Assembly: GCF_029910535.1 (NCBI RefSeq)
Contig: NZ_CP069362.1
Span: 992,001-1,056,000, forward strand
Length of the DNA: 64,000 nucleotides
Direction of reading: 5' to 3'
Origin: Marinitoga aeolica
Lineage (GTDB): Bacteria > Thermotogota > Thermotogae > Petrotogales > Petrotogaceae
Shown: piece by piece, positions 25,771-44,119 of the stretch
Position numbering within the stretch: position 1 is the first letter of the stretch
Layout: each line of letters starts with the position of its first letter
The notes under the pieces: generated by a model
Seen by the model: the letters and a program-made list of their open reading frames with translations, nothing else
What the model was told of the DNA's origin: nothing
The model's database searches: none
Program-made: the position numbers and the translations under genes

Positions 25771-25795
25771 AAATCCCCCTTTTAAAGGGGGATTT
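25771..25795. terminator. Bidirectional intrinsic terminator
   Basis: Hairpin AAATCCCCCTTT/AAAGGGGGATTT between the sugar transporter and the convergent chemosensory operon, touching the last codon of the HD gene. Confidence 0.85.
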
Positions 25796-27500
25796 ATAAT
25801 TCAGAAATAGATCCCATTTTTCTAATGGAAGATTGTCTTCTAAAAATTATCCTGTATATTGCAGACTGCAATCTTTCTGGCAATTCAAAAAATTTAGCTT
25901 CATATTCATTATGATACAAAAGTTTTTTCTTTGAAATCAATGATGCTGGAATAAATAATTTTTCTCCAAATTCTTCTATATATATCATAATCACATCATC
26001 TTGTTTAAAAACATCATCCTCTTGAAGTATAGAAAAAATCATCCCTTCTGCCCCAAAAACCTTACATCTTGCTGGCTTCATTTTCGACTTCAAAACATTC
26101 CATATAACTGGGGTGAGTTTTTCTTTTAATAATGGTGTAATTTCATTTTTATGACCAATTAAAAATTCAAAATTCCAAAAAACTTTTAATTTTGATTTTT
26201 TTGTTTCTCTTTTTTCAATAATTTTTATAATATATCCATAAGGATTTTTTAATATTACCTGAGCTTTTGCTATCAATGGAAAATCCTTTGTTGTTATTTT
26301 TACTTTTAATATCGACCCTATATTAATTTGATCCATCGTTCTTACATTTACATATAACATATCTCCCAACACTTTTTCCACAATTCCTGTTAATTCAATT
26401 AACTCTTCTCCCAAGCCTTCATATCTTAAATTAATTGTTTTTGATTTTAATGCTAATCCTGAAAATTTCCCATTATCAAATTCTGTATAATAAATCTTTA
26501 ATGCTTCAATAGCAGCATTAACAACATTCTTATCATATAATTTTCCAGCATTTTTTTCCAGATATTTTATTATATTCTCTGTTTCCTGATTTCCTGAAAG
26601 GACTATATTCTCATCAATATAATTTGCAACTATTAAAATATTATCTTCTATAGATAAATCTTTTTTCTTAAAATATCCCGTTCCTGCCATGTTTTCATGA
26701 TGATTTAATGCCAAATCTACATATGGTTTCATTAAAACATTTCCAAAAAACATTTCCTCAAGCCTTTTTAAATGCATACTTATCATATGATCCTTTTCTC
26801 TACCATTTTGTATATCAAATATTTCCTCAAGAGCTTTTTCAGAAAACCATATATATCCTATATCATGAATAAACGATGCTATCTGCAATCTATACAAGCT
26901 CTCTTCATCTAACCCTAATAAACTTCCCATAATATTTGTTAAATCTGAAACTCTTAAAGAATGCTCATATAAAACCTCAGAATGATTTTGAAGGAGTGTC
27001 AAATAATTTTTCACAAAAGCGTTTATGGAATATTTTGAATATTTATTAAAATAAACTGCATCAATATTCTTTTCAAATATAGAAATAAATCTTGAGAACA
27101 CATCTCTATTATCAAATACTATCTCATCCTTAGAAATCAAATAAAAAAAACCATAATTTTTTTCCTTTTCTGGCAATAATATTGTTTTTATAATAAAATT
27201 ATCAAATCTATTATTTATCAAAAACGAAAACTCATTTGAAAATGTTACTTTAAATTGAGATTCTCTTTTTTCTTCAAAAACATCATACATTTTTTGTGGA
27301 ACTTCAAATACAACATCTTCAGAATATTCAAAATATTCTTTATTTAAATTATCAAAAGTAAATATATTTAGAAAGCTTGTGCCTTCTAAATTCACTGCAA
27401 GTCCTATAAACAATTCTTTATTTTGAAATAATGTTCTCGAAAATATATTGATAGCTCTTTTTATAATTTCAAGATTAAATATTTTAATCACCTCAATCAA
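25794..27500 (-). CDS. HD-domain protein with N-terminal GAF-like and C-terminal PilZ-like regions
   Basis: 568 residues, last gene of the chemosensory operon. Residues 1-150 look like a GAF-type sensor. Residues 180-330 carry an HD phosphohydrolase core (YEHSLRVSD, FIHDIGYIW, LNHHENMAGTGYF) that is HD-GYP-like but with GYF for GYP and ANYID where the final Asp segment normally stands. The last 200 residues are beta-rich and end ELPERLQSAIYRIIFRRQ, suggestive of a YcgR/PilZ-type domain; the PilZ arginine motif is not clear. The start is uncertain: TTG 27500 overlaps the previous stop (TTGA), while the GAGGTGAT at 27494-27487 points to ATA 27482, a rare start codon. Role in cyclic di-GMP turnover is inferred. 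Confidence 0.72.
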   Translation of the reverse strand: MIEVIKIFNLEIIKRAINIFSRTLFQNKELFIGLAVNLEGTSFLNIFTFDNLNKEYFEYSEDVVFEVPQKMYDVFEEKRESQFKVTFSNEFSFLINNRFDNFIIKTILLPEKEKNYGFFYLISKDEIVFDNRDVFSRFISIFEKNIDAVYFNKYSKYSINAFVKNYLTLLQNHSEVLYEHSLRVSDLTNIMGSLLGLDEESLYRLQIASFIHDIGYIWFSEKALEEIFDIQNGREKDHMISMHLKRLEEMFFGNVLMKPYVDLALNHHENMAGTGYFKKKDLSIEDNILIVANYIDENIVLSGNQETENIIKYLEKNAGKLYDKNVVNAAIEALKIYYTEFDNGKFSGLALKSKTINLRYEGLGEELIELTGIVEKVLGDMLYVNVRTMDQINIGSILKVKITTKDFPLIAKAQVILKNPYGYIIKIIEKRETKKSKLKVFWNFEFLIGHKNEITPLLKEKLTPVIWNVLKSKMKPARCKVFGAEGMIFSILQEDDVFKQDDVIMIYIEEFGEKLFIPASLISKKKLLYHNEYEAKFFELPERLQSAIYRIIFRRQSSIRKMGSISEL

Positions 27501-28865: not shown

Positions 28866-29258
28866 TCATAATAATCCCAAAGTCTTTTTCCACCTTTTTA
28901 CTCTTTCAACATTCTCTTTTACTAATTCTATTATATTTTCTGGTTCAAATGGTTTTTCAATAAAATCTGTAGCTCCAAGTGTCAATGCATGTAAAACATA
29001 ATCTGGACTTGAATAAGCCGTCATCATAATAATTATTGTTAACGGAGAAATCTTTTTTGTTTTTCTTAATACCTCTATGCCATCTAAATCTTCCATTATA
29101 ATATCAAGCAAAATTACATCATATTCTGTATTTTTTATTAATTCTATAGCCTTATTTCCTCCTTCTGCTACATCAACTCGAAAATTTTCACTTTCTAAAA
29201 CTTTTTTAAGAACATTTCTAATTACACTGTCATCATCAACAATCAATATCTTCCCCAT
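28866..29258 (-). CDS. Single-domain response regulator
   Basis: 130 residues, one receiver domain. Acidic pair in ILIVDDDS, phosphorylation Asp in VILLDIIMED near residue 52, Thr in MMTAYS, and Lys in IEKPFEP. The tail VERVKRWKKTLGLL is like that of the regulator at 42088-42492 (IERWRNAF), so the two may share a partner. Lies between an HD-GYP gene and the pseudokinase gene. Confidence 0.9.
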   Translation of the reverse strand: MGKILIVDDDSVIRNVLKKVLESENFRVDVAEGGNKAIELIKNTEYDVILLDIIMEDLDGIEVLRKTKKISPLTIIIMMTAYSSPDYVLHALTLGATDFIEKPFEPENIIELVKENVERVKRWKKTLGLL

Positions 29259-29260
29259 AA

Positions 29261-30397
29261 TTATACCTCCTCTAAAAACTTATTTATTTTTAAAAATTTT
29301 ATGAATTCATCTGCCAGATATGGGTCAAATTGTTTTCCTTTATTTTTAATAATTTCTCTTATTGCATCATTAATAGATAATGAGTTTCTATAAGGCCTTG
29401 CTGTTGTCATAGCATCAAAAGCATCAACCACTGTAATTATTCTTGATTCAAATGGTATTTCCTCTCCAATTAGTCCATCAGGATATCCATTTCCATCATA
29501 TCTTTCATGATGATGTCTTATTATTTTTCCTATTTTTTCAAATCCTTCAAATGTTTTGACCAATTCCTCTCCTCTAACAGGATGTTCCTTAATTTTTTCA
29601 AGCTCTTCACAAGTTAATTTTTCTTTCTTTAATAATATACTTTGAGGTATTGAAAGCTTTCCAATATCATGTAAAGCACTTGCAAGAAAAATATCATTTA
29701 TAATTTCTTCTTTCCCTATTATTTTAGCAAGTGTTGTTGCATAGTAAGAAACCCTTTCAGAATGACCTTTTGTATATGGATCATAAAAATCTACAGCTTT
29801 TAAAAATGCAAATGCCGTATTTTTTAAAAAATTCTTTTGCTGACTATATAATTCTCTTGACATTAAAAAATTAGATGCTATATTGCTCATAACTTTAATT
29901 AAATCTATTTCAACCTTTTTAATTATTTTGTCTTTTAAATCCAAAATTATATATCCATACAATTCATATGTTTTAAGCGGTATCACAAGACTTTTATGAG
30001 CAGAAAATATTTTATCTTTCAATGAATCATAATTTTTAATATAGGTACTGTAAAAATTCTCAATTTCCTTTATTTCAATAAATTCTTCTGTTAAAATAGC
30101 TGTATCTAACAATAATTTTTTGCTATGTCCTAATGTTGAAACAAATCTAAAAAAATCTCCTTCTTTTTTTAAAACACAACCATATGAAATTTCAGGAATT
30201 AACTCAACAAAATAGGATAATAATTTACCAAAATAATTTTTCATAGATATATCTATAGATATATTTGTTATTAAATCTGTAACCCTGACAAATTTACTAT
30301 TTATTTCTTCTAATTCTTTATATGAAATTTCTAATTGTTCATATGCTTCTTCTAATTCTTTTTTAAGAGCTTTTAATTCTTCATAATTTTTATCCAT
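29261..30397 (-). CDS. GAF and HD-GYP domain protein, putative cyclic di-GMP phosphodiesterase
   Basis: 378 residues. N-terminal coiled coil (1-40, ELKALKKELEEAYEQLEISY), GAF-like domain (45-185), and a complete HD-GYP domain: GHSERVSYYA, ALHDIGKLSIP, RHHHERYDGNGYPDGL, VVDAFDAMTTARPYR and KGKQFDP. All metal ligands and the GYP motif are intact, so hydrolysis of cyclic di-GMP is likely. Overlaps cheB by 8 bases. No membrane segment, so cytoplasmic. Confidence 0.9.
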   Translation of the reverse strand: MDKNYEELKALKKELEEAYEQLEISYKELEEINSKFVRVTDLITNISIDISMKNYFGKLLSYFVELIPEISYGCVLKKEGDFFRFVSTLGHSKKLLLDTAILTEEFIEIKEIENFYSTYIKNYDSLKDKIFSAHKSLVIPLKTYELYGYIILDLKDKIIKKVEIDLIKVMSNIASNFLMSRELYSQQKNFLKNTAFAFLKAVDFYDPYTKGHSERVSYYATTLAKIIGKEEIINDIFLASALHDIGKLSIPQSILLKKEKLTCEELEKIKEHPVRGEELVKTFEGFEKIGKIIRHHHERYDGNGYPDGLIGEEIPFESRIITVVDAFDAMTTARPYRNSLSINDAIREIIKNKGKQFDPYLADEFIKFLKINKFLEEV

Positions 30398-31457
30398 ATC
30401 TCAATCCTGCTTTCTTTATAATTTCCTCAGCTATTTTATAAGAAGGTAAGGTTATATCTGCGCCTCCCAACCTAATAGCTTCAGCAGGCATTCCAAAAAC
30501 AACTGCTGTTTCTTCAGATTCAGCTATAGTATACCCTCCATTTTGTTTTATTTTAACCATTGCGTTAGCTCCATCATTTCCCATACCAGTCATTAATACA
30601 CCTATGGTTTTATCATTAAAATTATCTAAAACAGACTCCATCATTATATCCACTGAAGGCATAAAAACATGTTTTGGAGATTTGGATAACATTATCTTTA
30701 AACTATCCAATCCTTTTCTCAATTTTAAATGATATCCACCTTTTCCTACATAAACATTTCCCGGCTTAACTTCCATTTCATCCTCTGCTTCAACAACTTT
30801 TAACTCACAACTAGCATTTAATCTTTCAGCATAAGTTTTGGTAAACTGTGCGGGAATATGTTGCACTAAAAAAATTGCTGCATTTAAGTTTGCAGGGAGT
30901 TTTGGTAAAACATCATATATTGTTCTTGGACCTCCTGTTGAAATACCTATTGCAACAGCATAAAAATCACTTTTTACTGGAGTTGTAATTTCTTTTTTCT
31001 CTTTTGGTTTATATGAAATTTCTTTCTCGGAAAAAAATTCTTTTTTTGCTTCTTCTGACAAAGAAAATATATATGCTGCATGAATCTTTTTTATTAGTTC
31101 ATCCTTTAAATAATATAAATCAGCGGGTTTTTCAATATAATCAAAAGCTCCTAATTCAAGTGCTTCATAAGCTATCACTGAACTTCTTTCCCCTAAAGAA
31201 GAAACAACAATAACAGGAATATTTTTTTCTTCAAGAATATATTGTAATGCCGTTAATCCATCCATATTTGGCATTTTTATATCCATTATTATGACATCTG
31301 GATTTAATTCATTTGTTTTTTCAATTGCTTCAATTCCATCTCTTGCTACCCCTATTACTCTCAATTTTTCATCTGATTCAATCAACATCTTTAATATTTT
31401 TCTTGTTAATGGCGAATCATCAGCAATTAATATTTTTATTTTCTGAATAACAATCAC
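30390..31457 (-). CDS. cheB: Chemotaxis response regulator methylesterase CheB
   Basis: 355 residues. Receiver domain at 1-125 (ILIADDSPLTRKIL, phospho-Asp in VIIMDIKMPNMDG) and methylesterase domain from 165 with catalytic Ser (GISTGGPRT), His (VQHIP) and Asp (TGMGNDGANAM). Removes methyl groups from receptor glutamates, opposing CheR. GTG 31457 overlaps the CheW stop as GTGA; however, GAGGTGATT sits over it and would be well spaced for an ATT at 31448, so the true start is uncertain. Confidence 0.95.
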   Translation of the reverse strand: MIVIQKIKILIADDSPLTRKILKMLIESDEKLRVIGVARDGIEAIEKTNELNPDVIIMDIKMPNMDGLTALQYILEEKNIPVIVVSSLGERSSVIAYEALELGAFDYIEKPADLYYLKDELIKKIHAAYIFSLSEEAKKEFFSEKEISYKPKEKKEITTPVKSDFYAVAIGISTGGPRTIYDVLPKLPANLNAAIFLVQHIPAQFTKTYAERLNASCELKVVEAEDEMEVKPGNVYVGKGGYHLKLRKGLDSLKIMLSKSPKHVFMPSVDIMMESVLDNFNDKTIGVLMTGMGNDGANAMVKIKQNGGYTIAESEETAVVFGMPAEAIRLGGADITLPSYKIAEEIIKKAGLRYG

Positions 31458-32962
31458 CTCGATCGTTTTAATTTAACATTTCTTTTCTTGGTTTTACTCT
31501 CTTTATTTTCATTTTTTTCAATGAATTTATTTTCTAATTTCTTTGCCTTTTCAATATCTTTTTTTGATTCCTCATTTTGAACATCCTTTTTATTACCAAT
31601 TTTTTCTTTTTTTCTTATTTTAGATTTTTCAATACTTTTATTCAGAGCATCTAATTCATTTTTATTTAAAACTTTTTTTAAATCCAGAAGAAGGATTGAA
31701 TCCCCATTATATTCTCCCAATCCTTTTATAAATCTACTATCTGATTTAAGCTGAATATAATCCATTGATACTAATTTATTTACGGAATCAACAAGAAATC
31801 CTATCAATTGGTTTTCTACATTAACAACCATTATTCTTGAAAATTGAGAAACTTCTATACCTTTAGAATTACCAAATCTAATCTTTAAATCTATTAATGG
31901 TAATACATCACCTCTTAAATTCATTATTCCACGAATATATGGTGATGAATATGGAATTTTAGTTATGTTTTTAATTCTATTCACTTCCCTAACTAAATTC
32001 ATCTCAATAGCATATTTCTCATTATTTACTTCGAACAATATATATTTATTTTTGGTTTTTCTTTTTTCATTCTTAATTTTTTTTTCGCTTTTTTTGTTTA
32101 GTGATTTTATATCATCATTTAAAACATCCGAAAGATTTAATATTACAGCAGAAAATTCATCTGTCTTAATATAACCACTTAAAATATTTTTACCCTTTAT
32201 TATAAATGGTATTTCTTTTATTTTATCCACTTCAATTAATCTATGAATATTTTCAACAATTAAACCTATTTTAATTTGATCTATATCAATTATTGCAATT
32301 TTAGTATATTCTGTAATTTTAGACTCTGTATTATATAATAATTCCTTTAAATCTATGATTGGTATTGTTTCTTCTCTTTCGGTTATTATTCCTTTAACAT
32401 AATTTATTACATTGGGTATTTTACCCGGTTCAATATAATTAATTATTTCAAATATATCTTTTATTTCAAAACCATATATTTCATTATTAATTTTAAAAGT
32501 AATTATCTTTTTCTTTTTTATATTTTTGACGTTTTCTTTACTTTGTTTATGAGACTCAGAATTCATAAAAACTGTTTTCTCTATATCAATTATTTTATTA
32601 ATATCTAACAAAAGATATTCTTTATTTTTGTTCTTCAAAACAGATTCAATATATTGAGACTTCGTATCTATTTTTTCTTCTATTTTATTTAAAATCCCTT
32701 TTATTGAATCTACCATAATCCCATATCTTTTTTGACCTTGAAGTATAATAATCTTTGAAAGATTATTATACTCAGTTTTATATTTCATTCTTATCTTTAA
32801 GTTAACAATAGGGATTATTTCTCCCCTTAAATTGATTAATCCTTCAATATATTCTGGAAACATGGGAACTCTTGTGATTTTCTTCATATCTATAATTTCT
32901 TCAATATTATTCATTGGAATACAGTATTCCTGATTATCCAGAGAAAATATGATATAATTCAT
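31454..32962 (-). CDS. Triple CheW-domain coupling protein
   Basis: 502 residues with three CheW domains in tandem: about 1-135 (PEYIEGLINLRGEIIPIVNL), 150-280 (VINYVKGIITEREETIPIID) and 300-430 (PYIRGIMNLRGDVLPLIDL). A highly charged Lys/Glu-rich tail fills 430-502. Domains 1 and 3 keep the NLRG(E/D)(I/V)(I/L)P receptor and kinase contact motif; in domain 2 it reads TEREETIP, so that contact is weakened. CheW links receptors to CheA. Three domains could bridge the two-tip receptor encoded next to it. ATG 32962 with AGAGGTG upstream. Confidence 0.88.
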   Translation of the reverse strand: MNYIIFSLDNQEYCIPMNNIEEIIDMKKITRVPMFPEYIEGLINLRGEIIPIVNLKIRMKYKTEYNNLSKIIILQGQKRYGIMVDSIKGILNKIEEKIDTKSQYIESVLKNKNKEYLLLDINKIIDIEKTVFMNSESHKQSKENVKNIKKKKIITFKINNEIYGFEIKDIFEIINYIEPGKIPNVINYVKGIITEREETIPIIDLKELLYNTESKITEYTKIAIIDIDQIKIGLIVENIHRLIEVDKIKEIPFIIKGKNILSGYIKTDEFSAVILNLSDVLNDDIKSLNKKSEKKIKNEKRKTKNKYILFEVNNEKYAIEMNLVREVNRIKNITKIPYSSPYIRGIMNLRGDVLPLIDLKIRFGNSKGIEVSQFSRIMVVNVENQLIGFLVDSVNKLVSMDYIQLKSDSRFIKGLGEYNGDSILLLDLKKVLNKNELDALNKSIEKSKIRKKEKIGNKKDVQNEESKKDIEKAKKLENKFIEKNENKESKTKKRNVKLKRSR

Positions 32963-32975
32963 AAGTCAGCACCTC

Positions 32976-34910
32976 TTAGAGTTGCAAATCACTTGATTGA
33001 TTCATTATCTCTTTTACCACTTTCAACATTTCATTTATTCCTCTTTCATGTTCTAACGAGGCTTTAGAAGCTTCTTCAATAGATGCAAACGATTCTTCAA
33101 CAGCGCTTTGAGCCTGTTCTACAGCTCTTTTAGATTGTTCAATCGCTATTGTTATTTCTGAAATAGAATGCGTAATAGAATCATATTTATTCAATAGATT
33201 ATTTAAATTTTTTTCTATTTCAACAATAGCATATATCGATGAATTTGCCTCTAATATCCCTGAATATGCTCTTTTTTGGTTTTCATAAACATTTTCTTCT
33301 GAACTCTTTATATTTTCGTCTATCTCTTCAAGAACCATTTTAATCGATTCTAAATTTTCTTCTGAATTTTTTGATAACTCTCTAATATCATTAGAAACAA
33401 CGTAAAAACCTTTTCCGGATTCTCCTGCTCTTGCAGCTTCAATAAATCCATTTACAGCTAACATATTTATTTGAATAGACATCTTCTCCATTTTAGAAAT
33501 AATATTATTTATTTGCTTAAAATTTGAAGATAACTTTTTTATATTTGCATATATATTTGAAAATCCATCATTTGTTTGAGTTATATTTTTTATTAATTCA
33601 TTTACTTTATCTTTATCTTCTTTAACCTTCTTATATATTTCATTAAGAACATCTTTATCCTTTTTATTTGTTTCCAATAATTCACGAGATAATTCATAGA
33701 ATTTTATTACTAAAGTATTCATATTATCCATTTCTCCAGCAAATACCGATGAAATTTTTTCAAGTTGCTCAAGGTGAGATTTTATATTTTCTGATCCATC
33801 ATAAGCTTCTTCCATTACATTAAACAATTCATCTATTGAAGTTGATAACAATTCTAAAGATGTTTTATCTTCTACTGAATTTAAAATTTTTTCAGAAACG
33901 TCAACTAAATCTTGAGATGCCTGGGAAATTTGAATAAATGCTTTTTCTTCTTCTTGCAAAGAAATAGAAATATCTTCTGACTCCCTTGCCACCTGTTCAG
34001 AAAAAGATACAACATTTTCTGCAGAAGATAAATATTTTTCTGATATTTCAGCAAATTCTTCTATTATATTCATTTCTTTATTTATATTATTTTTAACCTC
34101 TTCAAAAACTTCTCTTATTTTCTTAAAATCCTCATTTATATCATTTCCTAAATCTCCCTGATTCTTAAAAAATTCGCTTAATTTTTCCACATTTTCAATT
34201 ACAAAATCCATACTTTTCCTGAGATTACCTATATATTTTTCTATGCTTTTTGCATTAATCTCCGAAATTTCTGCAAGATTTCTAACTTCATCAGCTACTA
34301 CAGCAAATCCAACACCATATTCTTCAGCTCTTGCTGCTTCTATTGCTGCATTTAATGATAACAAATTTGTTTGATCGGCTATTAAAACTACGGAATTAAT
34401 TATTTCAGATATTTTCTGAGATTTTTCTTTTAATTCCATAATATTTTCGTTTGTTTCTTTATTAAATTCTATAGTTTTATTTACAGAATTTATCAACGTA
34501 TCCACACTATTTATTGATTGTAAAATTTGAACTTGTGATTTATCCGTTTCATATAAAATATCATTTGCTTCTTTTTTTATGTTTTCTGAATTTTTATTTA
34601 TTTGATATATTGCTGCTCTTATTTCGTGAATGGAATTTGATATTTGTTCTGTTCCGGAACTTATTTGCATCATGGATTTTGATAATTCTTCAACACTGGA
34701 ACTAATCTGTTCAACAGCCGCCAACAATTCTTCAGAGGATGATGTTAAATTCTCTGCAATAACCTGTCTCTTTATAATTGTTTGCTTTTTAGCTCTTTCC
34801 ATAGCCTTTTGACGAGCTTCTTCTCTTTTTTTCTTAAGTTCTTCATCTTTAATCTTCATTATTCCGGGTTTTTTTTGTGACTCAGGAGAGAGTAATTTTT
34901 TTTCTTCCAT
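32976..34910 (-). CDS. Soluble chemoreceptor with two signalling tips
   Basis: 644 residues, no signal peptide or membrane segment, almost wholly coiled coil, so a cytoplasmic receptor. The N-terminus (1-50) is basic and charged ([18 protein letters not shown]). Two MCP hairpin tips are visible. The first, at 176-205, is close to consensus ([20 protein letters not shown]). The second, at 475-505, is diverged ([20 protein letters not shown]) and lacks the QTN and LNAAIEA details. Each has flanking heptads, so the protein seems to be two receptor hairpins in one chain. No ligand-binding domain is evident. Followed by the triple CheW gene and preceded by the ParA/TPR pair. Confidence 0.88.
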
Positions 34911-34959
34911 TTCAATTCCCCCTTATATCAACATATAATTTTTTATAATTTCATTTTAG

Positions 34960-35250
34960 TCAAAACATTCCCTCCAAATATTCAAGGTTTTCCTTTGCTT
35001 CTTTATTATCAGGATTAGCTTCTAAAGATTTTTTTAATAATTCTATAGCTTCTTTCTCAAAACCATTTTCCGCTAATATAACTGCAGCATTATTTAATGC
35101 TTTTGATTTAATTTCTTCATTGCTTTCTGCTGCTTTCATATAATAATGAAAAGCATAAAATATATTTCCCTTTTCATCCAATTCTAATGCCTTTTTAAAT
35201 AAATTATCTGAATTAAAAAATACATTTAAACCACGTCCTAATGTTTTCAT
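34960..35250 (-). CDS. TPR protein with Spo0J/ParB-like N-terminal peptide
   Basis: 96 residues. The first dozen (MKTLGRGLNVFF) match the ParB/Spo0J N-terminus (LGRGLxALF type), the short peptide whose basic residue stimulates ParA ATPase. The rest is about two tetratricopeptide repeats (KGNIFYAFHYYMKAAE, GFEKEAIELLKKSLEANPDN), with no ParB DNA-binding domain. It overlaps the ParA-like gene by 4 bases. The reading is that it is the partner and activator of that ATPase, docking it to the receptor array through the TPR part. The motif is seen; the role is inferred. Confidence 0.8.
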   Translation of the reverse strand: MKTLGRGLNVFFNSDNLFKKALELDEKGNIFYAFHYYMKAAESNEEIKSKALNNAAVILAENGFEKEAIELLKKSLEANPDNKEAKENLEYLEGMF

Positions 35251-36002
35251 TTAACCAACTCCTGTATTTCTTTTGCAATTTTTCTTATATCTAATGCCGC
35301 TCTTGATTTTGGCGCATATTTTTTTATTGGTATTCCATGACTTGATGACTCTATAAGCTTTACATCATTTCTAAGTGGAGTTAATACCTTTTTTTCTCCA
35401 AAAATTCTCTTTAACTCATTTATTATTTCCTTTGAAATTTTTGTCCTTTTATCAACCATTGTCGGAATTACACCAAGAAATTTTAAATCTGGATTTTCAG
35501 TATTTACTTTATAATAGATTTCCATCATTTGAGATAGTCCTACTAAAGACAGGAAATCACTTTTTACTGGTATTAATAAATAATCAGAAGCGTTTAACGC
35601 ATTAATCGTCAATAATCCTAAACTTGGAGGTGTATCTATAAAAATATAATCGTATTTATTATGAAAATCTATTAATATATCCTTTAAAACAAAATTTCTT
35701 CCTTCATATGATGCTAATTCAATTTCAAGTGCTGCTAAATTTTGGTTTGATGGAATAATATCTATATTATGAATATTTAAAGTTTTATTTTGATATTTCC
35801 CTGTATTTAAATAATCCACTATCATCTCATATATTCCATACTTCACATCAAAAGGATTTATGCCTGCATAAACAGTTGAATGTGCTTGAGAATCAAAATC
35901 TATTAATAATGTTTTTTTATTCATAACATTGGCTAAATTATATGCAAGTGTTGTTTTCCCACTACCACCTTTTCTATTAGCGAAAACAATAACTTCAGCC
36001 AT
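35247..36002 (-). CDS. ParA-like ATPase for chemosensory cluster positioning
   Basis: 251 residues. Deviant Walker A NRKGGSGKTT at 9-18 with the signature Lys, switch I region LIDFDSQAHST, Walker B FIDTPPSLGLLT near 120, and the usual C-terminal KSRAALDIRKIAKEI. ParA-type proteins embedded in che operons (PpfA in Rhodobacter, ParC in Vibrio) place and segregate chemoreceptor clusters rather than plasmids. Position between cheA and the TPR/receptor genes supports that role here. ATG 36002 overlaps the CheA stop by one base. Confidence 0.88.
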   Translation of the reverse strand: MAEVIVFANRKGGSGKTTLAYNLANVMNKKTLLIDFDSQAHSTVYAGINPFDVKYGIYEMIVDYLNTGKYQNKTLNIHNIDIIPSNQNLAALEIELASYEGRNFVLKDILIDFHNKYDYIFIDTPPSLGLLTINALNASDYLLIPVKSDFLSLVGLSQMMEIYYKVNTENPDLKFLGVIPTMVDKRTKISKEIINELKRIFGEKKVLTPLRNDVKLIESSSHGIPIKKYAPKSRAALDIRKIAKEIQELVK

Positions 36003-37879
36003 TATATCACCAATCCTGATGGTCTAAGAATCAATACTATATCTCCATTTCCTAAAATTGTTGAACCATATATAAATTTATGTTTTAAATATTCTGGTAA
36101 TGGTTTAACCAAAAATTCATTCTCTTCTATCAATTCATCTATTAATATAGCTGCATTACCATTATCAATTATAACCATCGGTAATAAATCATATTTATAT
36201 TCTCTACTTATTATCTCTTCATATGAATATTCCTTATTCTCTAAAATACCCTTTAAATCAAAAACGGGAATAATTTCATCATTATATTCAACAAATATCT
36301 GATTAGAATAGTTATGTATTTTATCTTTTTTTACCTTAATAATCTTCTCTACCTCTTCAAATGGAAAGATATATTTATTTTCTTCAATATAAAACATGAT
36401 GCCCTCTACATTCATTAATGAATTAGGAATTTTTAATGTGATTTTTGTTCCCTGTCCTTTTTTAGTTTCGATAAAAATCTTTCCATTCAATTTTTCTATG
36501 TTATTTTTTACCACATCCATTCCTACTCCGCGCCCAGAGATTTCTGTAACCTCTTCTGCAGTGCTAAATCCCGGTTCAAAAATATAATTAATAATTTCTT
36601 CATCTGATTTTTCCGTATTAAGCCCTAATTCTTTTGCTTTCTTTCTAATTTTTTCTGAATCAATACCACGTCCATCGTCAATAACTTCAATATACACATA
36701 ACCACTTTCATAATACACATTTGTTTTTATTAATCCTTCTTCATTTTTACCAAGCTTTTTTCTTTCCTCAATAGTTTCTATTCCATGGTCAATTGCATTT
36801 CTAATTAAATGAGTTAGCGGATCAGATAAGTTTTCCAATAAAATTCTATCCAATTCTATATTTTCACCTGAGATTTCATATGATATTTTTTTATTTTTTT
36901 CTTTAGCTAACTCCCTTATTAATCTTTTATATCTATATAATAATTCCTTTATAGGCACCATTTTCAAACTTAAAATCTGCTCCTGAAGATTAACACTTAT
37001 CTTGTCTAAATTTGAAAAAATCATGGAATATTCTTTATATAATACCGGAGATATCTTATATAATTCTTTTAACAAAAATGATGAAGTATTTTTTATAGTT
37101 ATTAATTCACCTACTAAATTCATTATGTTATTAATCTTTTTGATATCTACTCTAATTGTATCTGAAAATTCTATACTAACATCTTCAACCTTTTCATCTT
37201 TCTTATTATATAAAATTTTATCAAATTCATCAATGGTTTTTTTAATGCTATTTTTATTCTTTTGTTGAATATATTTTATTATTTCTTCAAACTTGTGAAT
37301 TAGTTTCTTATTGTCTATTTTCATTAGAATATTCATAATAGGCTTTTTCATTCTTTCTATTTGAAGCATATCATATTCTTCTGCATTTATTAAATATTCA
37401 AAAAATTGTTCTTTTAAATTTATTAATAATTTCAATTTCGTTTCTATTAAACTCGTTTCTTTATCCTTTTTTATTTTTATATTTTCAATATTTTTCATAA
37501 AATCTGAAATATCTATACTTACACTTTCATCCTCAAATGATTTTCTTATTTTTTTTATCAGGTCTAATCCCTCATATAACATATCGATTTTTTTTTCGTC
37601 CATCTTTTCTCCAAGAGTTAATGTCAAATCCTCCAATTTATGTGAAATATTTTCTAAAGCTTTTATCTTTTCAATATATCTATCGGGTATTTCCATAGAT
37701 AATAATAGCCTTGATATTCCCTTCAGGCTATGAAATCCTCGCATTATTGAATTAGTTAATTTAAAATTTCTCGTTTTTTCAAAATCAACCAAATTCATTT
37801 CAATTAAATTGATGTTTTCTTCCACTTCTTCATGGAAATCGGTTAATATACCTTCTATAAACTTTTTATCAAAATTCAT
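36002..37879 (-). CDS. cheA: Chemotaxis histidine kinase CheA
   Basis: 625 residues from ATG 37879 (GGAGAGG upstream; TTG 37894 lies before that site). P1 phosphotransfer domain with His50 in RGFHSLKGISR. A middle region without a clear P2 domain. P3 dimerisation (about 250-310; IMNLVGELITIKN), P4 ATPase (DPLTHLIRNAIDHGIE, DDGRGID, FEPGFSTA, GRGVGMDVV) and P5 CheW-like domain (490-625). All catalytic boxes are intact. Signals to CheY, CheB and possibly the other receivers in the cluster. Two bases separate it from cheY. Confidence 0.96.
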   Translation of the reverse strand: MNFDKKFIEGILTDFHEEVEENINLIEMNLVDFEKTRNFKLTNSIMRGFHSLKGISRLLLSMEIPDRYIEKIKALENISHKLEDLTLTLGEKMDEKKIDMLYEGLDLIKKIRKSFEDESVSIDISDFMKNIENIKIKKDKETSLIETKLKLLINLKEQFFEYLINAEEYDMLQIERMKKPIMNILMKIDNKKLIHKFEEIIKYIQQKNKNSIKKTIDEFDKILYNKKDEKVEDVSIEFSDTIRVDIKKINNIMNLVGELITIKNTSSFLLKELYKISPVLYKEYSMIFSNLDKISVNLQEQILSLKMVPIKELLYRYKRLIRELAKEKNKKISYEISGENIELDRILLENLSDPLTHLIRNAIDHGIETIEERKKLGKNEEGLIKTNVYYESGYVYIEVIDDGRGIDSEKIRKKAKELGLNTEKSDEEIINYIFEPGFSTAEEVTEISGRGVGMDVVKNNIEKLNGKIFIETKKGQGTKITLKIPNSLMNVEGIMFYIEENKYIFPFEEVEKIIKVKKDKIHNYSNQIFVEYNDEIIPVFDLKGILENKEYSYEEIISREYKYDLLPMVIIDNGNAAILIDELIEENEFLVKPLPEYLKHKFIYGSTILGNGDIVLILRPSGLVI

Positions 37880-37880
37880 T

Positions 37881-38252
37881 TTAATCCTCTCCAAGCGCTA
37901 TGTTTACACTTTCTATTAATGATTCTGGGTCTGATGGTTTTACTATATAAAAATTGGCTCCTACTTCAAACCCTTTCATTTTATTTGTAGATTTATCTAA
38001 CGTCGTTACAATAATTATTGGTATGTCTTTATAATTTTCATCTTCTCTAATCTTTTTTATCATTGTATAACCATCGAGATTTGGCATATTTAAATCCGTT
38101 AATATAAGATCTATATCTCCTTCTCTATATAATATATCTAAAGCCTTTGCACCGTCTTCTGCTTCAAGTACCTCATATCCTGCCGCTTTTAAAATACTGG
38201 CATGATAACTTCTTGTCATCTTAGAATCATCTATTACAAGAATTTTATACAT
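37881..38252 (-). CDS. cheY: CheY-type response regulator
   Basis: 123 residues, a single receiver domain: ILVIDDSKMTRSYH, phospho-Asp in LILTDLNMPNLDGY, Thr in IIVTTLD, Lys in IVKPSDPE. The alpha4 face has the aromatic-free sequence GFEVGANFYIVK. As no flagellar genes are nearby, its target may not be the flagellar switch. Overlaps cheR by 8 bases. Confidence 0.93.
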   Translation of the reverse strand: MYKILVIDDSKMTRSYHASILKAAGYEVLEAEDGAKALDILYREGDIDLILTDLNMPNLDGYTMIKKIREDENYKDIPIIIVTTLDKSTNKMKGFEVGANFYIVKPSDPESLIESVNIALGED

Positions 38253-39084
38253 TATTTGCCCCTCCTTCAGACGGTTTTTGATATAATATGAAATCGTTTG
38301 CCTTTACAATCCTGAAAGCATTTGTTATTCTGTTTATAGATTCAGAATGACCTAAAAATATATAGCCCCCTTCATTTAAAATCGTATAAAATTTAGTTAC
38401 AATCTTTTTTCTAATTTCATCTGAAAAATATATAAACACATTTCTGCAAAAGATAAAATCATAATCATCATCTAATTTTTCATATGTTTCATCTTCAATT
38501 AAATTAAGATTATATATATTTACTTTATCTTTCACTATATCCTTTACTTTATAATTATTTCCTTCTTTTTCAAAATATTTTGCTAAATATTCTTTAGGTA
38601 CATCTCTAATAGAATAATCACTATATACTGCACTTCTTGCCTTTAATACCATTATTGGATCAATATCCAGAGCATCTATTTTATAATCAAAACCATAATC
38701 AAGCATTTCCTTTAAAATTATAGATAATGTATAAGGTTCTTCACCAGAGGCACTACCAGCAGATAACACTTTAATATATTTATTACTTTTCCTTTTAATT
38801 ACATCATTTAATGCATATTCTGCAAAAACTTTTAATTGAGGAAATTCTCTAAAAAAATACGTCTCATTTATTGTTATTTCGCTTATTAGTTTTTTTAACT
38901 CCATCTCAGAGTATTCGCTTTTTACTAAAAAATTGTAATATGTTTCAGGATTATCTAATGCGAGTTTTTTTATCCTTTTAATAACCCTGTTTTTAAAAAA
39001 ATACATCCTTTTCTCTTCAATATATATTCCTGTTTTTTCATATATATAATCTCTTATTTTATTATAATTTATTGTATCTACCAT
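38245..39084 (-). CDS. cheR: Chemotaxis methyltransferase CheR
   Basis: 279 residues. N-terminal helical domain (1-75) and S-adenosylmethionine-binding domain: FFREFPQLKVFAEY, VLSAGSASGEEPYTLSIIL, IDALDIDPIMVLKARSAVYS, FDFIFCRNVFIYFS and FLGHSESI. Methylates receptor glutamates. No TPR extension. ATG 39084 with GGAGATG upstream, overlapping the HEAT gene by 7 bases. Confidence 0.95.
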   Translation of the reverse strand: MVDTINYNKIRDYIYEKTGIYIEEKRMYFFKNRVIKRIKKLALDNPETYYNFLVKSEYSEMELKKLISEITINETYFFREFPQLKVFAEYALNDVIKRKSNKYIKVLSAGSASGEEPYTLSIILKEMLDYGFDYKIDALDIDPIMVLKARSAVYSDYSIRDVPKEYLAKYFEKEGNNYKVKDIVKDKVNIYNLNLIEDETYEKLDDDYDFIFCRNVFIYFSDEIRKKIVTKFYTILNEGGYIFLGHSESINRITNAFRIVKANDFILYQKPSEGGANNV

Positions 39085-40127
39085 TCTTTCATCTCCAAAA
39101 AAACATCATCAATAATTGCTCTAACTTCTTCAGAAAATTTTTCTTTAACTTCTTGAAGATCCTCTTTTAGAGACGTTAATTTTCTTTCATTTACTATTTC
39201 AACTGCTGCCATTATTCCTTCATCATTTAAATATTTTATATTTTCTTTCAATATATCCTCAATTTCATCTTCAAACAAATTGTTTAAAACAATCAAAATA
39301 TCGTATTTATATGTATCAAAATCCTCTGACTTCAAAATATCTATCAATATTTCCCCTAATTTATTTTTTAATTTTTGATATATTTTTATATTTTTATAAT
39401 TCCTGAAAATATATTCCAGAAAATCATTTATAATCATTTTTTTATGTTTATTGTTAGCAAAAAAATCTATGCATTCAAAAACATTTTTTCTGCTGAATAT
39501 ATATTTAGAATATGGTATAATCAGATATGGTTTATTTAATTTTTTTATTTTTTCATCTATTATTTTATCTGTTTTTTCATTACCTATTAAAGACAGAGTT
39601 TCAAGTATAGTGGTAATTAAAAATGGATTTTTTGCTGTTTTTAATTTTTCTGATATCTCTTCAGCATATTCATTCGCTCCTAATAATCCCAAATACTCTA
39701 TTGCTGCAATTTGATTATTTATATCTGGATCGTTCAAACATTTAGCTATATATTTAATTGCTTCTTTTTCTTTTGTCCTATAAAGTCCATCTAATGCATA
39801 TTTTCTAATATCTTTATCTTCACTTTCAATTAATTTTCCTAATACCTTAATTTTTTTTGATATACTTAAAAGGGATAATGCAAATTCTTTTAATAATAAT
39901 TTTTCATCACTTAATAAATTCAAAAATAATTCATCTGGAATATTCTCTAAATTTAACTGCTTTAAAGTATTGATTATGGCTTCTTGAACTATTATATTAT
40001 TTTCGTATTTTAACATTTTAAATAAATCTTTCGCATATTTGTTCTTTTGCTCTTCAGCAATTATCTCAAGTGCTTTTAAAAGCTCTTTTTCATTAGAAGA
40101 ATATAACATTTTTTTTATATTCATCAT
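39078..40127 (-). CDS. HEAT-repeat protein at the head of the chemosensory operon
   Basis: 349 residues made of helical HEAT or PBS-lyase-like repeats of about 30 residues, e.g. LLSDEKLLLKEFALSLLSI, LIESEDKDIRKYALDGLYR, CLNDPDINNQIAAIEYLGLLG. No signal peptide, membrane helix or catalytic motif. Such repeats bind partners; HEAT proteins are found in some non-flagellar chemosensory clusters as scaffolds or regulators. ATG 40127 with AAGGAGAG upstream. First gene of the operon. Confidence 0.75.
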   Translation of the reverse strand: MMNIKKMLYSSNEKELLKALEIIAEEQKNKYAKDLFKMLKYENNIIVQEAIINTLKQLNLENIPDELFLNLLSDEKLLLKEFALSLLSISKKIKVLGKLIESEDKDIRKYALDGLYRTKEKEAIKYIAKCLNDPDINNQIAAIEYLGLLGANEYAEEISEKLKTAKNPFLITTILETLSLIGNEKTDKIIDEKIKKLNKPYLIIPYSKYIFSRKNVFECIDFFANNKHKKMIINDFLEYIFRNYKNIKIYQKLKNKLGEILIDILKSEDFDTYKYDILIVLNNLFEDEIEDILKENIKYLNDEGIMAAVEIVNERKLTSLKEDLQEVKEKFSEEVRAIIDDVFLEMKEW

Positions 40128-40163: not shown

Positions 40164-40287
40164 CCACATTTTAACACCAACTCTAAAATATCTTTAATTC
40201 TATATTACTTTAATAATATAATTTACATTTATTATTTTCGTTTTTATGCTATAATTATAATAATAGATATTTTTAGAGGTGTTAAAT

Positions 40288-40785
40288 ATGAAAGAAAATT
40301 TAATACAGCAGGGAATTAAAAAAGCTGAACATATTTTAAAAGAATTAACTGGACTTGATATAAAAATGAGCTCTAATCCTCCTAAAAAAATAAAATTAAG
40401 AGAAAATATAAATAAAAATTTTTATATTATGTTTAAATCTGCAAAAAACGCAAATAAAATATGGGATTTTTACTTTACACTATTATCTTCTGATTTTCTA
40501 AAATTTTTGGGGTTAATAGAACAATTTAAAAACATAGAAAATATTCAACCAGAGGATGTATTGGATTCTTTTTTAGAAATAGGTAATATTATTTGTGGAA
40601 ATGTTATTAGCGTAATTGCAAAAAATGAAAAAAATTTAATTTTTACACCTCCAATAATATATAAATTCTCAGAAGTCGAAGATAAAATTATAACTGGTAT
40701 TACAATCAAATTCGAAGTAGAAACATTAAATATTTCAGGATATCTTTTATTTGCATATAGCGAGGGGATTAATGATGGAAATTGA
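40288..40785 (+). CDS. CheX/CheC-like chemotaxis phosphatase
   Basis: 165 residues from ATG 40288 (GAGGTG upstream; GTG 40279 is inside that site). The segment DSFLEIGNIICGNVISVIA (about 91-109) matches the CheC/CheX active-site helix with its conserved Glu and Asn (ExxN). The family dephosphorylates CheY-P. Only one such helix is seen, as in CheX. Divergent from the main operon and overlapping the histidine kinase gene by 14 bases. Confidence 0.7.
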   Translation: MKENLIQQGIKKAEHILKELTGLDIKMSSNPPKKIKLRENINKNFYIMFKSAKNANKIWDFYFTLLSSDFLKFLGLIEQFKNIENIQPEDVLDSFLEIGNIICGNVISVIAKNEKNLIFTPPIIYKFSEVEDKIITGITIKFEVETLNISGYLLFAYSEGINDGN

Positions 40786-42085
40786 TATTAATAATTTAAA
40801 CACTCCCATTGCTATAATTGATATTGATGGAAACATTCTTAATAGCAATTTTTCTTTTGACGTTTTTTTTAAAGAAAAAAATTTGTTTAACTTAATTAAT
40901 CCACTTTTTCATTCTATGCTAAAAAGTATTTTGAAGAATCATTCTACATTTTATTCATCTGAAAGAAAAAATAAAAAAATCTTTAAAAATAAAAACTATT
41001 TTATTTTAAATCTTCATCCTTTAAATGAAAAAGAATATATAATGGAGTTATATCCAAAATCAAAAGAATATATATCTGAAATAAGCATTAATACCAAACT
41101 TAAATATCTTTATTCACTAACAGATTTCTATAATAAAAGTCTATCTTTTTTATTTTCAATTCAATATTTAAATAAAGATGAAATTGAAGAAAATTTTATT
41201 AAATTAATTCAACATAATGATTTTATTTTATTTATTTCAAAAGAGAAGGAAAGCCCCTATTATTTTGAATTTTTTGAAAATACTTATTATTACAAATTAA
41301 AAAAAGATATCCCTTTAAATATTATTCCTCTTATTAACAATTCTATTGAAATATTATCAAAACATTCTGAAAGTATTTTTAATATATTTTCTAAAAGAGA
41401 AGGAACAAAGGTATTCGATTATCTTGAAATCGCAAATAATTTAATCGTTGGTATGTTTCATGAAATAAATAACCCTCTATCTATTGTTTTAATGAAATCG
41501 GAAATGTTAAGTAATTTAATAGATGAAAAATATCAAGGATATGTTAAAAGTATTATTGATAATGTATATAGAATAATTGAAATTACAGGGTTATTTAAAG
41601 CTTTAGTAAAAGGTGAAATTTCACAAACAAAAATCGATTTAATAGAAATTATAAAAAATGTTGTGAAATTTATGCGTTTTAAAGCACCTTCGAATATAAA
41701 AATAAATTTAAGTTCTAATTCCTGGGAACCACACTATATTAAAGGTAACAAACAAGAATTAATGATCGTCTTTTCAAATTTAATAGAAAATGCTATTGAA
41801 GCTATTAACTCCACCAAAAAAACAGGATTTATTAACATTTCAATTAATGAACTCCCAACCTTTTATACTGTAATTATTGAAGATAACGGAGAAGGTATCC
41901 CTAAAGAAAATATTAAGAAAATTTTTGAACCATTTTTTACCACAAAATCAAAACATGGTATGGGATATGGTCTCTTTTTCGTATATAATATATGTCTAAA
42001 GCATAAAATTGAAATTAATGTTGATAGTAAAGTAAATAAAGGAACCAAATTTATATTAAAAATTTCTAAAATAAAGGGGGATTAA
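40772..42085 (+). CDS. Cytoplasmic sensor histidine kinase
   Basis: 437 residues from ATG 40772 (or 40775), with GAGGGG upstream. N-terminal PAS-like segment (IAIIDIDGNILNSNFSFDVFF), a middle region of unknown fold, then intact kinase boxes: H-box GMFHEINNPLSIVLMKSE, N-box NLIENAIEAI, G1 DNGEGIP, F-box FEPFFTTKSKHGMGYGL. No membrane segment. Probably phosphorylates the response regulator 2 bases downstream, and perhaps its near-twin at 28866. Confidence 0.88.
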   Translation: MMEIDINNLNTPIAIIDIDGNILNSNFSFDVFFKEKNLFNLINPLFHSMLKSILKNHSTFYSSERKNKKIFKNKNYFILNLHPLNEKEYIMELYPKSKEYISEISINTKLKYLYSLTDFYNKSLSFLFSIQYLNKDEIEENFIKLIQHNDFILFISKEKESPYYFEFFENTYYYKLKKDIPLNIIPLINNSIEILSKHSESIFNIFSKREGTKVFDYLEIANNLIVGMFHEINNPLSIVLMKSEMLSNLIDEKYQGYVKSIIDNVYRIIEITGLFKALVKGEISQTKIDLIEIIKNVVKFMRFKAPSNIKINLSSNSWEPHYIKGNKQELMIVFSNLIENAIEAINSTKKTGFINISINELPTFYTVIIEDNGEGIPKENIKKIFEPFFTTKSKHGMGYGLFFVYNICLKHKIEINVDSKVNKGTKFILKISKIKGD

Positions 42086-42087
42086 AA

Positions 42088-42492
42088 ATGGCCTGGAAAG
42101 TATTAATAGTTGATGATGAACCTGGCATTAGAGAAGTTTTAAAGGATTATATTGAAATGAATTTTGAACACACAAAAATTGAAACTGCAGAAAATGCAGA
42201 TACTGCTTTAAAAAAAGTAACCGAAGACCAATACCATATTATTTTATTAGATATAGTAATGCCTGGACTTGATGCTTTTGAATTCTTAAGAAGGGTTAAA
42301 GATTTAAATTCACTCATACAGGTTATTATGATTACAGGAAACTCCACAATGGAAAGAGTTCTTGAATCTATAGAAGCAGGCGCTGATGATTATTTATTAA
42401 AACCTTTTTCCACAAAAGAAATTGAAGAAATATTAAAATGTTCATTTGCTAGAATAGAACGTTGGAGAAATGCCTTTAGAAATTCATTTTAG
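42088..42492 (+). CDS. Single-domain response regulator
   Basis: 134 residues. Receiver motif set complete: VLIVDDEPGIREVL, phospho-Asp in IILLDIVMPG near 54, Thr in IMITGNS, Lys in LLKPFSTKE. Ends FARIERWRNAFRNSF, similar to the tail of the regulator in the main operon. No output domain. Ends at a bidirectional terminator. Confidence 0.9.
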   Translation: MAWKVLIVDDEPGIREVLKDYIEMNFEHTKIETAENADTALKKVTEDQYHIILLDIVMPGLDAFEFLRRVKDLNSLIQVIMITGNSTMERVLESIEAGADDYLLKPFSTKEIEEILKCSFARIERWRNAFRNSF

Positions 42493-42525
42493 ACGAAACC
42501 TTAAAAAGGTTTCGTCTAATTTATT
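42491..42525. terminator. Bidirectional intrinsic terminator
   Basis: Perfect 12-bp stem AGACGAAACCTT/AAGGTTTCGTCT with an AAA loop and a T-rich tail, between the response regulator and the convergent HD-GYP gene. Confidence 0.92.
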
Positions 42526-44119
42526 TTTTTGATTCTAAATAATTAATGAATATGTCTACAATCATTGGATCAAATTGTGTTCCACTATTTTCTTTAATTC
42601 TTTTTATTGCTTCTTTCTTCAATAATGTTGTTCTATATGCCTTTTTTGTAATCATTTCTGCATAAGCATCAGCAACAGCTATTATTTTAGATTCTAAAGG
42701 TATTTCTTTACATTTTAGTCCTTCTGGATAACCTTTGCCATCACATCTTTCATGATGATATTTGACAATTTTAGCTAATTCTTTATCTCCCAAATATTTT
42801 AAAATAATATTATAGCCCAATAAAGTATGTTTTTTTATATTCTCATATTCCTCCAAAGTTAAAGCTGAACTTTTAACTAAAATATTTTGTGGTATTCCAA
42901 TTTTACCTATATCATGTAATATTGCTGCCCAATATAGTTTTTCTAATTGTTTTTCATCAAATCCCATTTCTTTTCCTATTAATGTCGCATAATATGCAGT
43001 TTTTTCAGAATGATTTAATTTATATGCAGTATTTTTATCAAATAAATTAATAAATGCTTTAATTAAATTTTTTGAAAACAATTTCTCTTTATTTAATCTG
43101 TCTTTCAATTCAATTAATGAATACAGTATATTTTCATATTTAGAAGATAAATCATATTTATCAACAAGATATTCTCTGTTTTTTTCATTTAATTTTATAA
43201 ATATATAATATGATGAAACTACTTTAATTTGATAAAAATCTCCTTCTATTTCTGAAAAAGTTATTATATTCATATTTTTTTCCTTAAACTCTCTTTTAAT
43301 TTTAAGCTTTTCTACCATTAAATTTTCATATCCTATACTATCTTTAATAATTATCTTATTATCCATTCTTTTAGCAAAAATCGCTTTTTCAAAAAAAGGT
43401 ATGATTTTTGCACAAATTCTTAAAGATTCTTTAATTAAATATTTTTCATCATCAGATGAAATTAACAATTGAGACAATTGATGAATAGAATCAATAAATA
43501 TTTTATACTTATTATGCATTTCTTCATTAAGTTTTTGGTATTCATAATTTTTGAATTTTAATTCTTTATTCAATTCATTTATTTTATCCTTTTCTATTTT
43601 ATTTTTTAAAAATATTTTTGCTAAATTTCCAAATAATTTCAATATATTTATTGAATCTTCAGAAAAAGTTTTATTGCTATTAGCATCTATATCAAGTGCA
43701 AATCCCATCCATATTTTCTCTGTTATTTTCAGATGGTATGCTATTGTTTGTTTGATAGGCGTTGACGCTTTTTTTATTATCCTATACGAATATTCAGACA
43801 TATTCTCCTTTGTTTTTTCTAATATATTTCCATCCACAAAAATTAATCCCTCTTTTAAATTTTTTCTATTAATATAAAACGTCATATTACATAATAAATT
43901 TTTATTATGTCCTACAGTTGCCAACCATATCCACGAATTCTTTTCTGGTATAATCATTATTAAAGAGCCATAATCTGCTTCAGGAATTGTTTTTATTGCT
44001 AATTCCAATAATTTTTCATAATATTCATCCATATTTTGTGTTTCATCAAAAATTGTTTCCAGCATTTCAATGAGTTTAGTAAAATTATTTACAACATTAC
44101 GGCTTAATTCAATATTCAT
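42521..44119 (-). CDS. GAF and HD-GYP domain protein, putative cyclic di-GMP phosphodiesterase
   Basis: 532 residues. N-terminal GAF-like domain (20-175; EADYGSLIMIIPEKNSWIWL), a coiled-coil linker (175-215; KDKINELNKELKFKNYEYQK), a second sensor-like region (215-330) and a complete HD-GYP domain (360-525): NHSEKTAYYA, ILHDIGKIGIP, KYHHERCDGKGYPEGL, VADAYAEMI and GTQFDP. Same architecture class as the HD-GYP in the chemosensory operon. Cytoplasmic. Followed 4 bases upstream by nadE on the same strand. Confidence 0.9.
   Translation of the reverse strand: MNIELSRNVVNNFTKLIEMLETIFDETQNMDEYYEKLLELAIKTIPEADYGSLIMIIPEKNSWIWLATVGHNKNLLCNMTFYINRKNLKEGLIFVDGNILEKTKENMSEYSYRIIKKASTPIKQTIAYHLKITEKIWMGFALDIDANSNKTFSEDSINILKLFGNLAKIFLKNKIEKDKINELNKELKFKNYEYQKLNEEMHNKYKIFIDSIHQLSQLLISSDDEKYLIKESLRICAKIIPFFEKAIFAKRMDNKIIIKDSIGYENLMVEKLKIKREFKEKNMNIITFSEIEGDFYQIKVVSSYYIFIKLNEKNREYLVDKYDLSSKYENILYSLIELKDRLNKEKLFSKNLIKAFINLFDKNTAYKLNHSEKTAYYATLIGKEMGFDEKQLEKLYWAAILHDIGKIGIPQNILVKSSALTLEEYENIKKHTLLGYNIILKYLGDKELAKIVKYHHERCDGKGYPEGLKCKEIPLESKIIAVADAYAEMITKKAYRTTLLKKEAIKRIKENSGTQFDPMIVDIFINYLESKK

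Follow-up and report, generated by a model that had tools for sequence, protein, structure and literature searches.

A ParA-type ATPase and a TPR protein with a ParB-like peptide: a cassette that may position a cytoplasmic chemosensory array of the F9 class in Marinitoga aeolica

Our analysis makes it probable that two adjacent genes of Marinitoga aeolica form a cassette that positions or partitions a cytoplasmic chemosensory array of the F9 class, with a 96-aa TPR protein as the ATPase-activating adaptor that would link a nucleoid-bound ParA to the array. The pair lies in a window (here the entire stretch of DNA analysed) of 64,000 nt on NZ_CP069362.1 (GCF_029910535.1; positions 992,001-1,056,000, forward strand). 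An earlier note on this DNA had described a ParA-type ATPase whose gene overlaps that of a TPR protein with a ParB-like N-terminus, inside a chemosensory operon, and had tied both to a cytoplasmic array. The data presented here uphold these points, the link to an array as a likely one, and add the class of the array.

Pfam assignments of the neighbouring genes confirm the chemosensory operon, in the order HEAT, CheR, CheY, CheA, ParA, TPR, receptor, triple CheW, CheB, HD-GYP-type protein and response regulator (Table 1). The stop codon of parA and the start codon of the TPR gene (TGA/ATG) share 4 bp on the minus strand, which makes translational coupling likely. Two MCP signalling tips were found in the receptor, and reading its sequence by eye revealed no membrane segment. 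A DosM with two signalling domains and a concatenated triple CheW define the F9 class in the relevant passages of PMC9321776 and PMC7534058. Because both are present here, as in the V. cholerae cluster I described in parts of PMC7534058, the operon is by its gene content an F9-class cytoplasmic array system.

Table 1. Features of the che operon in the window and of che-type Hsp70 genes at other loci.
Feature	Coordinates	Strand	Remark
HEAT-repeat protein, opening the operon	39078..40127	-	Gene order kept in relatives
CheR methyltransferase	38245..39084	-	
CheY-type response regulator	37881..38252	-	
CheA kinase	36002..37894	-	Pfam
Soj-like ParA ATPase of che type (251 aa); Walker A deviant (KGGSGKT), motif 2 DSQAH	35247..36002	-	
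parA stop/TPR start overlap, 4 bp, ATGA	35247..35250	-	
TPR protein of 96 aa, N-terminal peptide ParB-like; putative adaptor that activates ParA	34960..35250	-	
Codons of LGRGLNVFF (residues 4-12), ParB-type candidate ParA-binding peptide	35215..35241	-	
Short TPR-DosM intergenic gap	34911..34959	.	Hsp70-like gene at the equivalent place in 8/9 relatives
DosM-type cytoplasmic receptor, two MCP signalling tips, basic N-terminal tail	32976..34910	-	
Triple CheW with its three CheW domains, a hallmark of F9	31454..32962	-	Pfam
CheB methylesterase	30390..31457	-	Pfam
HD-GYP-type HD_5 protein, same operon	29261..30397	-	Pfam
Response regulator, same operon	28866..29258	-	Pfam
Lidless che-Hsp70 with hydrophobic C-terminus (KII/EVL type), two phyla	L028:10391-11809, L121:11003-12490, L144:2381-3895		

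Some further features of the region were recorded. Three HD-GYP-type (HD_5) proteins are encoded in or beside the operon (25794-27500, 29261-30397 and 42521-44119), hinting at a link to cyclic-di-GMP. Upstream and divergent (40279-42492, plus strand) are genes for a CheX/CheC-like protein and a histidine kinase, followed in relatives by a response regulator. DosM-type receptors have an N-terminal tail of about 50 aa with a net positive charge (+5 to +8 in five checked), in most cases with a short TGI motif; by analogy to FrzCD, which has a DNA-binding tail (PMC5716589), the basic tail could provide a second nucleoid contact.

The ParA product matches the AAA_31/CbiA family (Pfam, 6.8e-49) and carries the Soj-type motifs, namely the deviant Walker A (KGGxGK[ST]), motif 2 (DxD) and Walker B. 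Residues are given in M. xanthus ParA numbering, onto which the ParB-peptide pocket was mapped (PMC12462528). Both Walker lysines, D58 and D60 are kept in the che-type ParAs (che-ParAs), as are the basic residues for DNA binding, with R209 in 10/10 and Lys for R238 in 9/10, a position also occupied by Lys in 46/71 Soj proteins. Within the pocket, L150, G151 and E82 are kept in 9/9 Thermotogota che-ParAs, E117 and L152 in 8/9 each, and Y81 in 8/9 (Phe once). The pocket differs at L187, which is Lys or Arg in all che-ParAs and hydrophobic in most Soj; D110 is usually Asn, and the L192 position is a gap in the ParAs of the window's genus. The catalytic Asn64 is replaced by His in nine of ten che-ParAs (residue 41 in M. 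aeolica) and by Gln in one (G048), whereas 70/71 Soj have Asn; judged from this alignment the replacement is diagnostic for che-ParAs. In view of the pocket changes and the Asn64 replacement, the kinetics of che-ParAs may differ. The che-ParAs form one group in the tree (98/93; long branches flagged for some members), apart from the 71 Soj, and share 36-41% identity with the Soj found by the scan. This genome scan, run with a profile of five ParAs, mostly returned chromosomal Soj/ParB pairs, which were kept as a yardstick; only L032-L034 had neighbours matching che query proteins.

The 96-aa protein starts MKTLGRGLNVFF (the product of its ORF begins MKTLGRGLNVFFNSD...) and carries the LG[RK]GL peptide of ParB/Spo0J N-termini. 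In nine homologues, with identities down to 48%, L4, G5, G7 and L8 are invariant while positions 12-17 vary. The earlier note had named TPR homologues without the peptide beside a ParA as counter-evidence; none was found among the Thermotogota homologues, LGxGL being present in 9/9 and R/K in 8/9 (LGRGL in six, LGKGL in two, LGMGL in G048). Scored with a 9-mer profile that combines 26 distinct ParB motifs, the protein came first among the 109 ORFs of the window (second-best below 0). Its score of 10 bits is expected about once per genome by the profile alone, and the strong evidence is therefore the conservation of the peptide in homologues. The pattern LG[KR]G[LI] occurred within the first 25 residues of 96 out of 6,534 mechanical ORFs (window plus loci, many of which overlap); apart from a spurious ORF in L065, all short carriers belong to this TPR family, and those of more than 200 aa were counted as ParBs by length alone. 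For the M. xanthus ParA/ParB peptide, the Arg is needed more for ATPase stimulation than for binding (PMC12462528), and the LGMGL of G048 has no such charged residue. Covariation between R/K of the peptide and E117 was considered, as the deviant peptides of G048 and G105 both go with a non-acidic residue at the E117 position; it was not used because a genuine Soj/ParB pair with LGMGL (L058) keeps Glu.

Behind the peptide follows a TPR body. The TPR_2 match (6.2e-06) is slightly below the Pfam gathering cut-off, and the fold is clear: AlphaFold models the protein with confidence (mean pLDDT 88) as a TPR-like array of helices, the N-terminus being poorly ordered (pLDDT below 50 at residues 1-4), and designed TPR proteins head its fold matches in the PDB. 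K50, N53, N54 and N88 are invariant in the nine homologues. Neither a ParB_N CTPase domain nor an HTH was matched by Pfam in the 96-aa protein, which is therefore not a ParB. The M. aeolica genome likewise gave no HTH_ParB or ParB_N match and no Spo0J-type ParB, and hence no sign of a chromosomal competitor. Such matches are few across Thermotogota; one ParB_N match (L134 in G053; 262 aa, without LGxGL, near a methyltransferase-like ORF) was rejected as a Spo0J.

The search for linkage suggested by the earlier note was completed over 103 Thermotogota genomes (che-type ParA cut-off E <= 1e-50), and the same nine contained a che-type ParA and an LGxGL-TPR protein, always adjacent. A further, weaker ParA match (G052) has other neighbours and belongs to a different kind of ParA, and the two weaker TPR matches, of G101 and G102, begin downstream of the peptide. 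Strong, full-length DosM matches, well above other MCPs, were found in 14 genomes, six of which have a che operon of the same layout without ParA and without TPR (G003 and G004 of the window's genus and four others); in G089, the ninth cassette genome, the contig ends before dosM. Most Thermotogota, these six F9-type clusters included, have no ParA-TPR cassette. Most members carry it between cheA and dosM; G068 has the trio of ParA, TPR and Hsp70 genes at the operon head. Since the two genes are missing together from F9-type clusters and share the changed place in G068, they behave as one unit: ParA-TPR is a cassette inserted in the F9 operon and gained or lost jointly. At L175 (G003:C11), in the window's genus, the F9 genes for CheA, CheB, HEAT and the HD-GYP-type protein are split into several ORFs, reflecting either decay or sequencing errors (the genome is 87% complete). 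A divergent ParA-TPR-Hsp70 trio with the peptide LGKSL is encoded, along with a DosM-type receptor and CheW, on a 5.4-kb Spirochaetota MAG contig too short for certain taxonomy. The TPR profile, run on 393 Spirochaetota with up to 12 candidates scored per genome, gave only G105 among the matches listed, and a plasmid search gave no match.

Most simply, the TPR protein would take the place of ParB, serving as both activator and adaptor, and the F9 array would be the cargo. We infer the following cycle. ATP-bound ParA dimers would coat the nucleoid while the TPR body docks on the array; the disordered LGRGL peptide would fold into the pocket at the ParA dimer interface and stimulate ATP hydrolysis like a ParB N-terminus. 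Cycles of tethering and release would then hold the sandwich arrays of DosM, CheW3 and CheA at the centre of the nucleoid or distributed across it, and such placement could let each daughter cell inherit one array.

In most relatives a third gene belongs to the cassette. Directly after the TPR gene, eight of the nine relatives have an Hsp70-like gene (truncated in one by the end of the contig), as does the Spirochaetota contig. These che-Hsp70s (473-512 aa) match positions 1-501 of 599 of Pfam HSP70, i.e. they have no C-terminal lid, and end in similar hydrophobic tails (KII, KIL, EVI, EVL, QVL, NVL). The M. aeolica genome contains only a canonical DnaK and weak matches; its che-Hsp70 is lost, and Hsp70 is for this reason dispensable to the ParA-TPR pair. 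A signature pattern of the Hsp70 matched 17 genomes among the 393 Spirochaetota; G105 and three others were opened and 13 are known by the pattern only. The copies at L145 and L153, from small spirochaete genomes, have an NERG signature and lie outside any che context; at L161 only long ORFs on the opposite strand were listed, and the other matches within L146-L159 are by pattern. Where present, the Hsp70-like protein probably remodels the array or the adaptor. A further possibility, doubtful though worth stating, is a chaperone-coupled partition machine of ParA, LGxGL-TPR adaptor and lidless Hsp70, in which the adaptor-held Hsp70 would break or trim the double-layered F9 array and ParA would divide it between daughters.

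TPR proteins are classic binders of the C-terminus of Hsp70 and Hsp90. The neighbourhood in most relatives and the similar hydrophobic tails would also fit a TPR protein that is mainly a co-chaperone, its groove binding the Hsp70 C-terminus and ParA recruiting Hsp70 to dismantle the array, with positioning secondary. We regard this as unlikely. The che-Hsp70 tail is not EEVD-like, and M. aeolica, without a che-Hsp70, retains the TPR protein with K50, N53, N54 and N88, which implies a further partner for the groove. It is quite improbable that the pair, instead of positioning arrays, switches their assembly or the signalling of CheA in an ATP-dependent way, with the peptide as on/off regulator. 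The site between cheA and dosM would suit a switch, the loss of Asn64 could make ParA slow and switch-like, and PpfA has been described as non-dynamic on the nucleoid (PMC10924463); however, the basic DNA-binding residues and Walker motifs are conserved, and placement is the role of those ParAs of che operons that have been studied (PMC10241942). Very improbable is a takeover of chromosome segregation in a ParB-less lineage, with the che location incidental: the lack of ParB matches in M. aeolica and their scarcity in the phylum would agree with it, but the pair is confined to nine of 103 genomes, comes and goes within F9 clusters and includes a TPR protein without a DNA-binding domain match in Pfam. 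That LGRGL is merely the chance start of a TPR protein, as the once-per-genome expectation for the 9-mer might suggest, is scarcely credible given a peptide invariant amid variable flanks and a Soj-like ParA adjacent each time.

The positioning cassette has its closest counterpart in PpfA/TlpT of Rhodobacter sphaeroides CheOp3, where a ParA of a che operon with a cytoplasmic receptor likewise serves a cytoplasmic array together with a putative ParB-like N-terminal activator (PMC3964821, PMC10924463, PMC2829493) and PpfA positions the arrays on the nucleoid (PMC10924463). There, by description, the activator segment is part of the chemoreceptor TlpT itself, whereas M. aeolica has a separate 96-aa TPR protein, an F9 system (DosM/CheW3) and, in most relatives, an Hsp70 gene. 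The earlier note saw in the adaptor a different solution for placing arrays, which stands in part. The separate TPR carrier is absent from the open-licence papers searched; the principle itself was already known, because the N-terminus of TlpT is thought to act ParB-like and so do the same for PpfA (PMC3964821). Neither the F9 setting nor an Hsp70 partner for an array ParA was found in this open-licence literature, and carrier, context and partner appear to be new. With Soj/Spo0J the pair shares a Soj-like ParA, an LGxGL N-terminal peptide and a largely conserved pocket; it differs in a partner without ParB_N/HTH and DNA binding, and in a ParA with His for Asn64, Lys/Arg for L187 and a tree group of its own. 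ParC/ParP of polar Vibrio arrays also combine a ParA-like ATPase with a partner for array placement, yet ParP, as portrayed in the available excerpts, has an AIF domain for integration into the array and acts on F6 arrays at the pole. Activation of a ParA/MinD ATPase by a partner unrelated to ParB is a likeness to PomX/PomZ, where PomX uses a short N-terminal peptide (PMC7993993), and to McdB/McdA (PMC9178275); peptide sequence and cargo differ, the M. aeolica peptide being ParB-like. The V. cholerae cluster I/F9 array has the same double-signalling-domain DosM and triple CheW, but its descriptions, in the passages available, mention no ParA, TPR or Hsp70 gene, unlike the M. aeolica operon, and neither do the relevant passages of an F9 survey (PMC9321776).

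How F9 arrays work is functionally still poorly understood, according to passages of PMC7534058. For the placement and inheritance of these purely cytoplasmic arrays, our results offer a candidate made up of two defined genes, with R6 as the site at which the peptide could be mutated. The TPR protein would represent a minimal ParA activator, reduced to a peptide and a docking domain, and its conserved Hsp70 neighbour raises a new question on chaperone control of array size.
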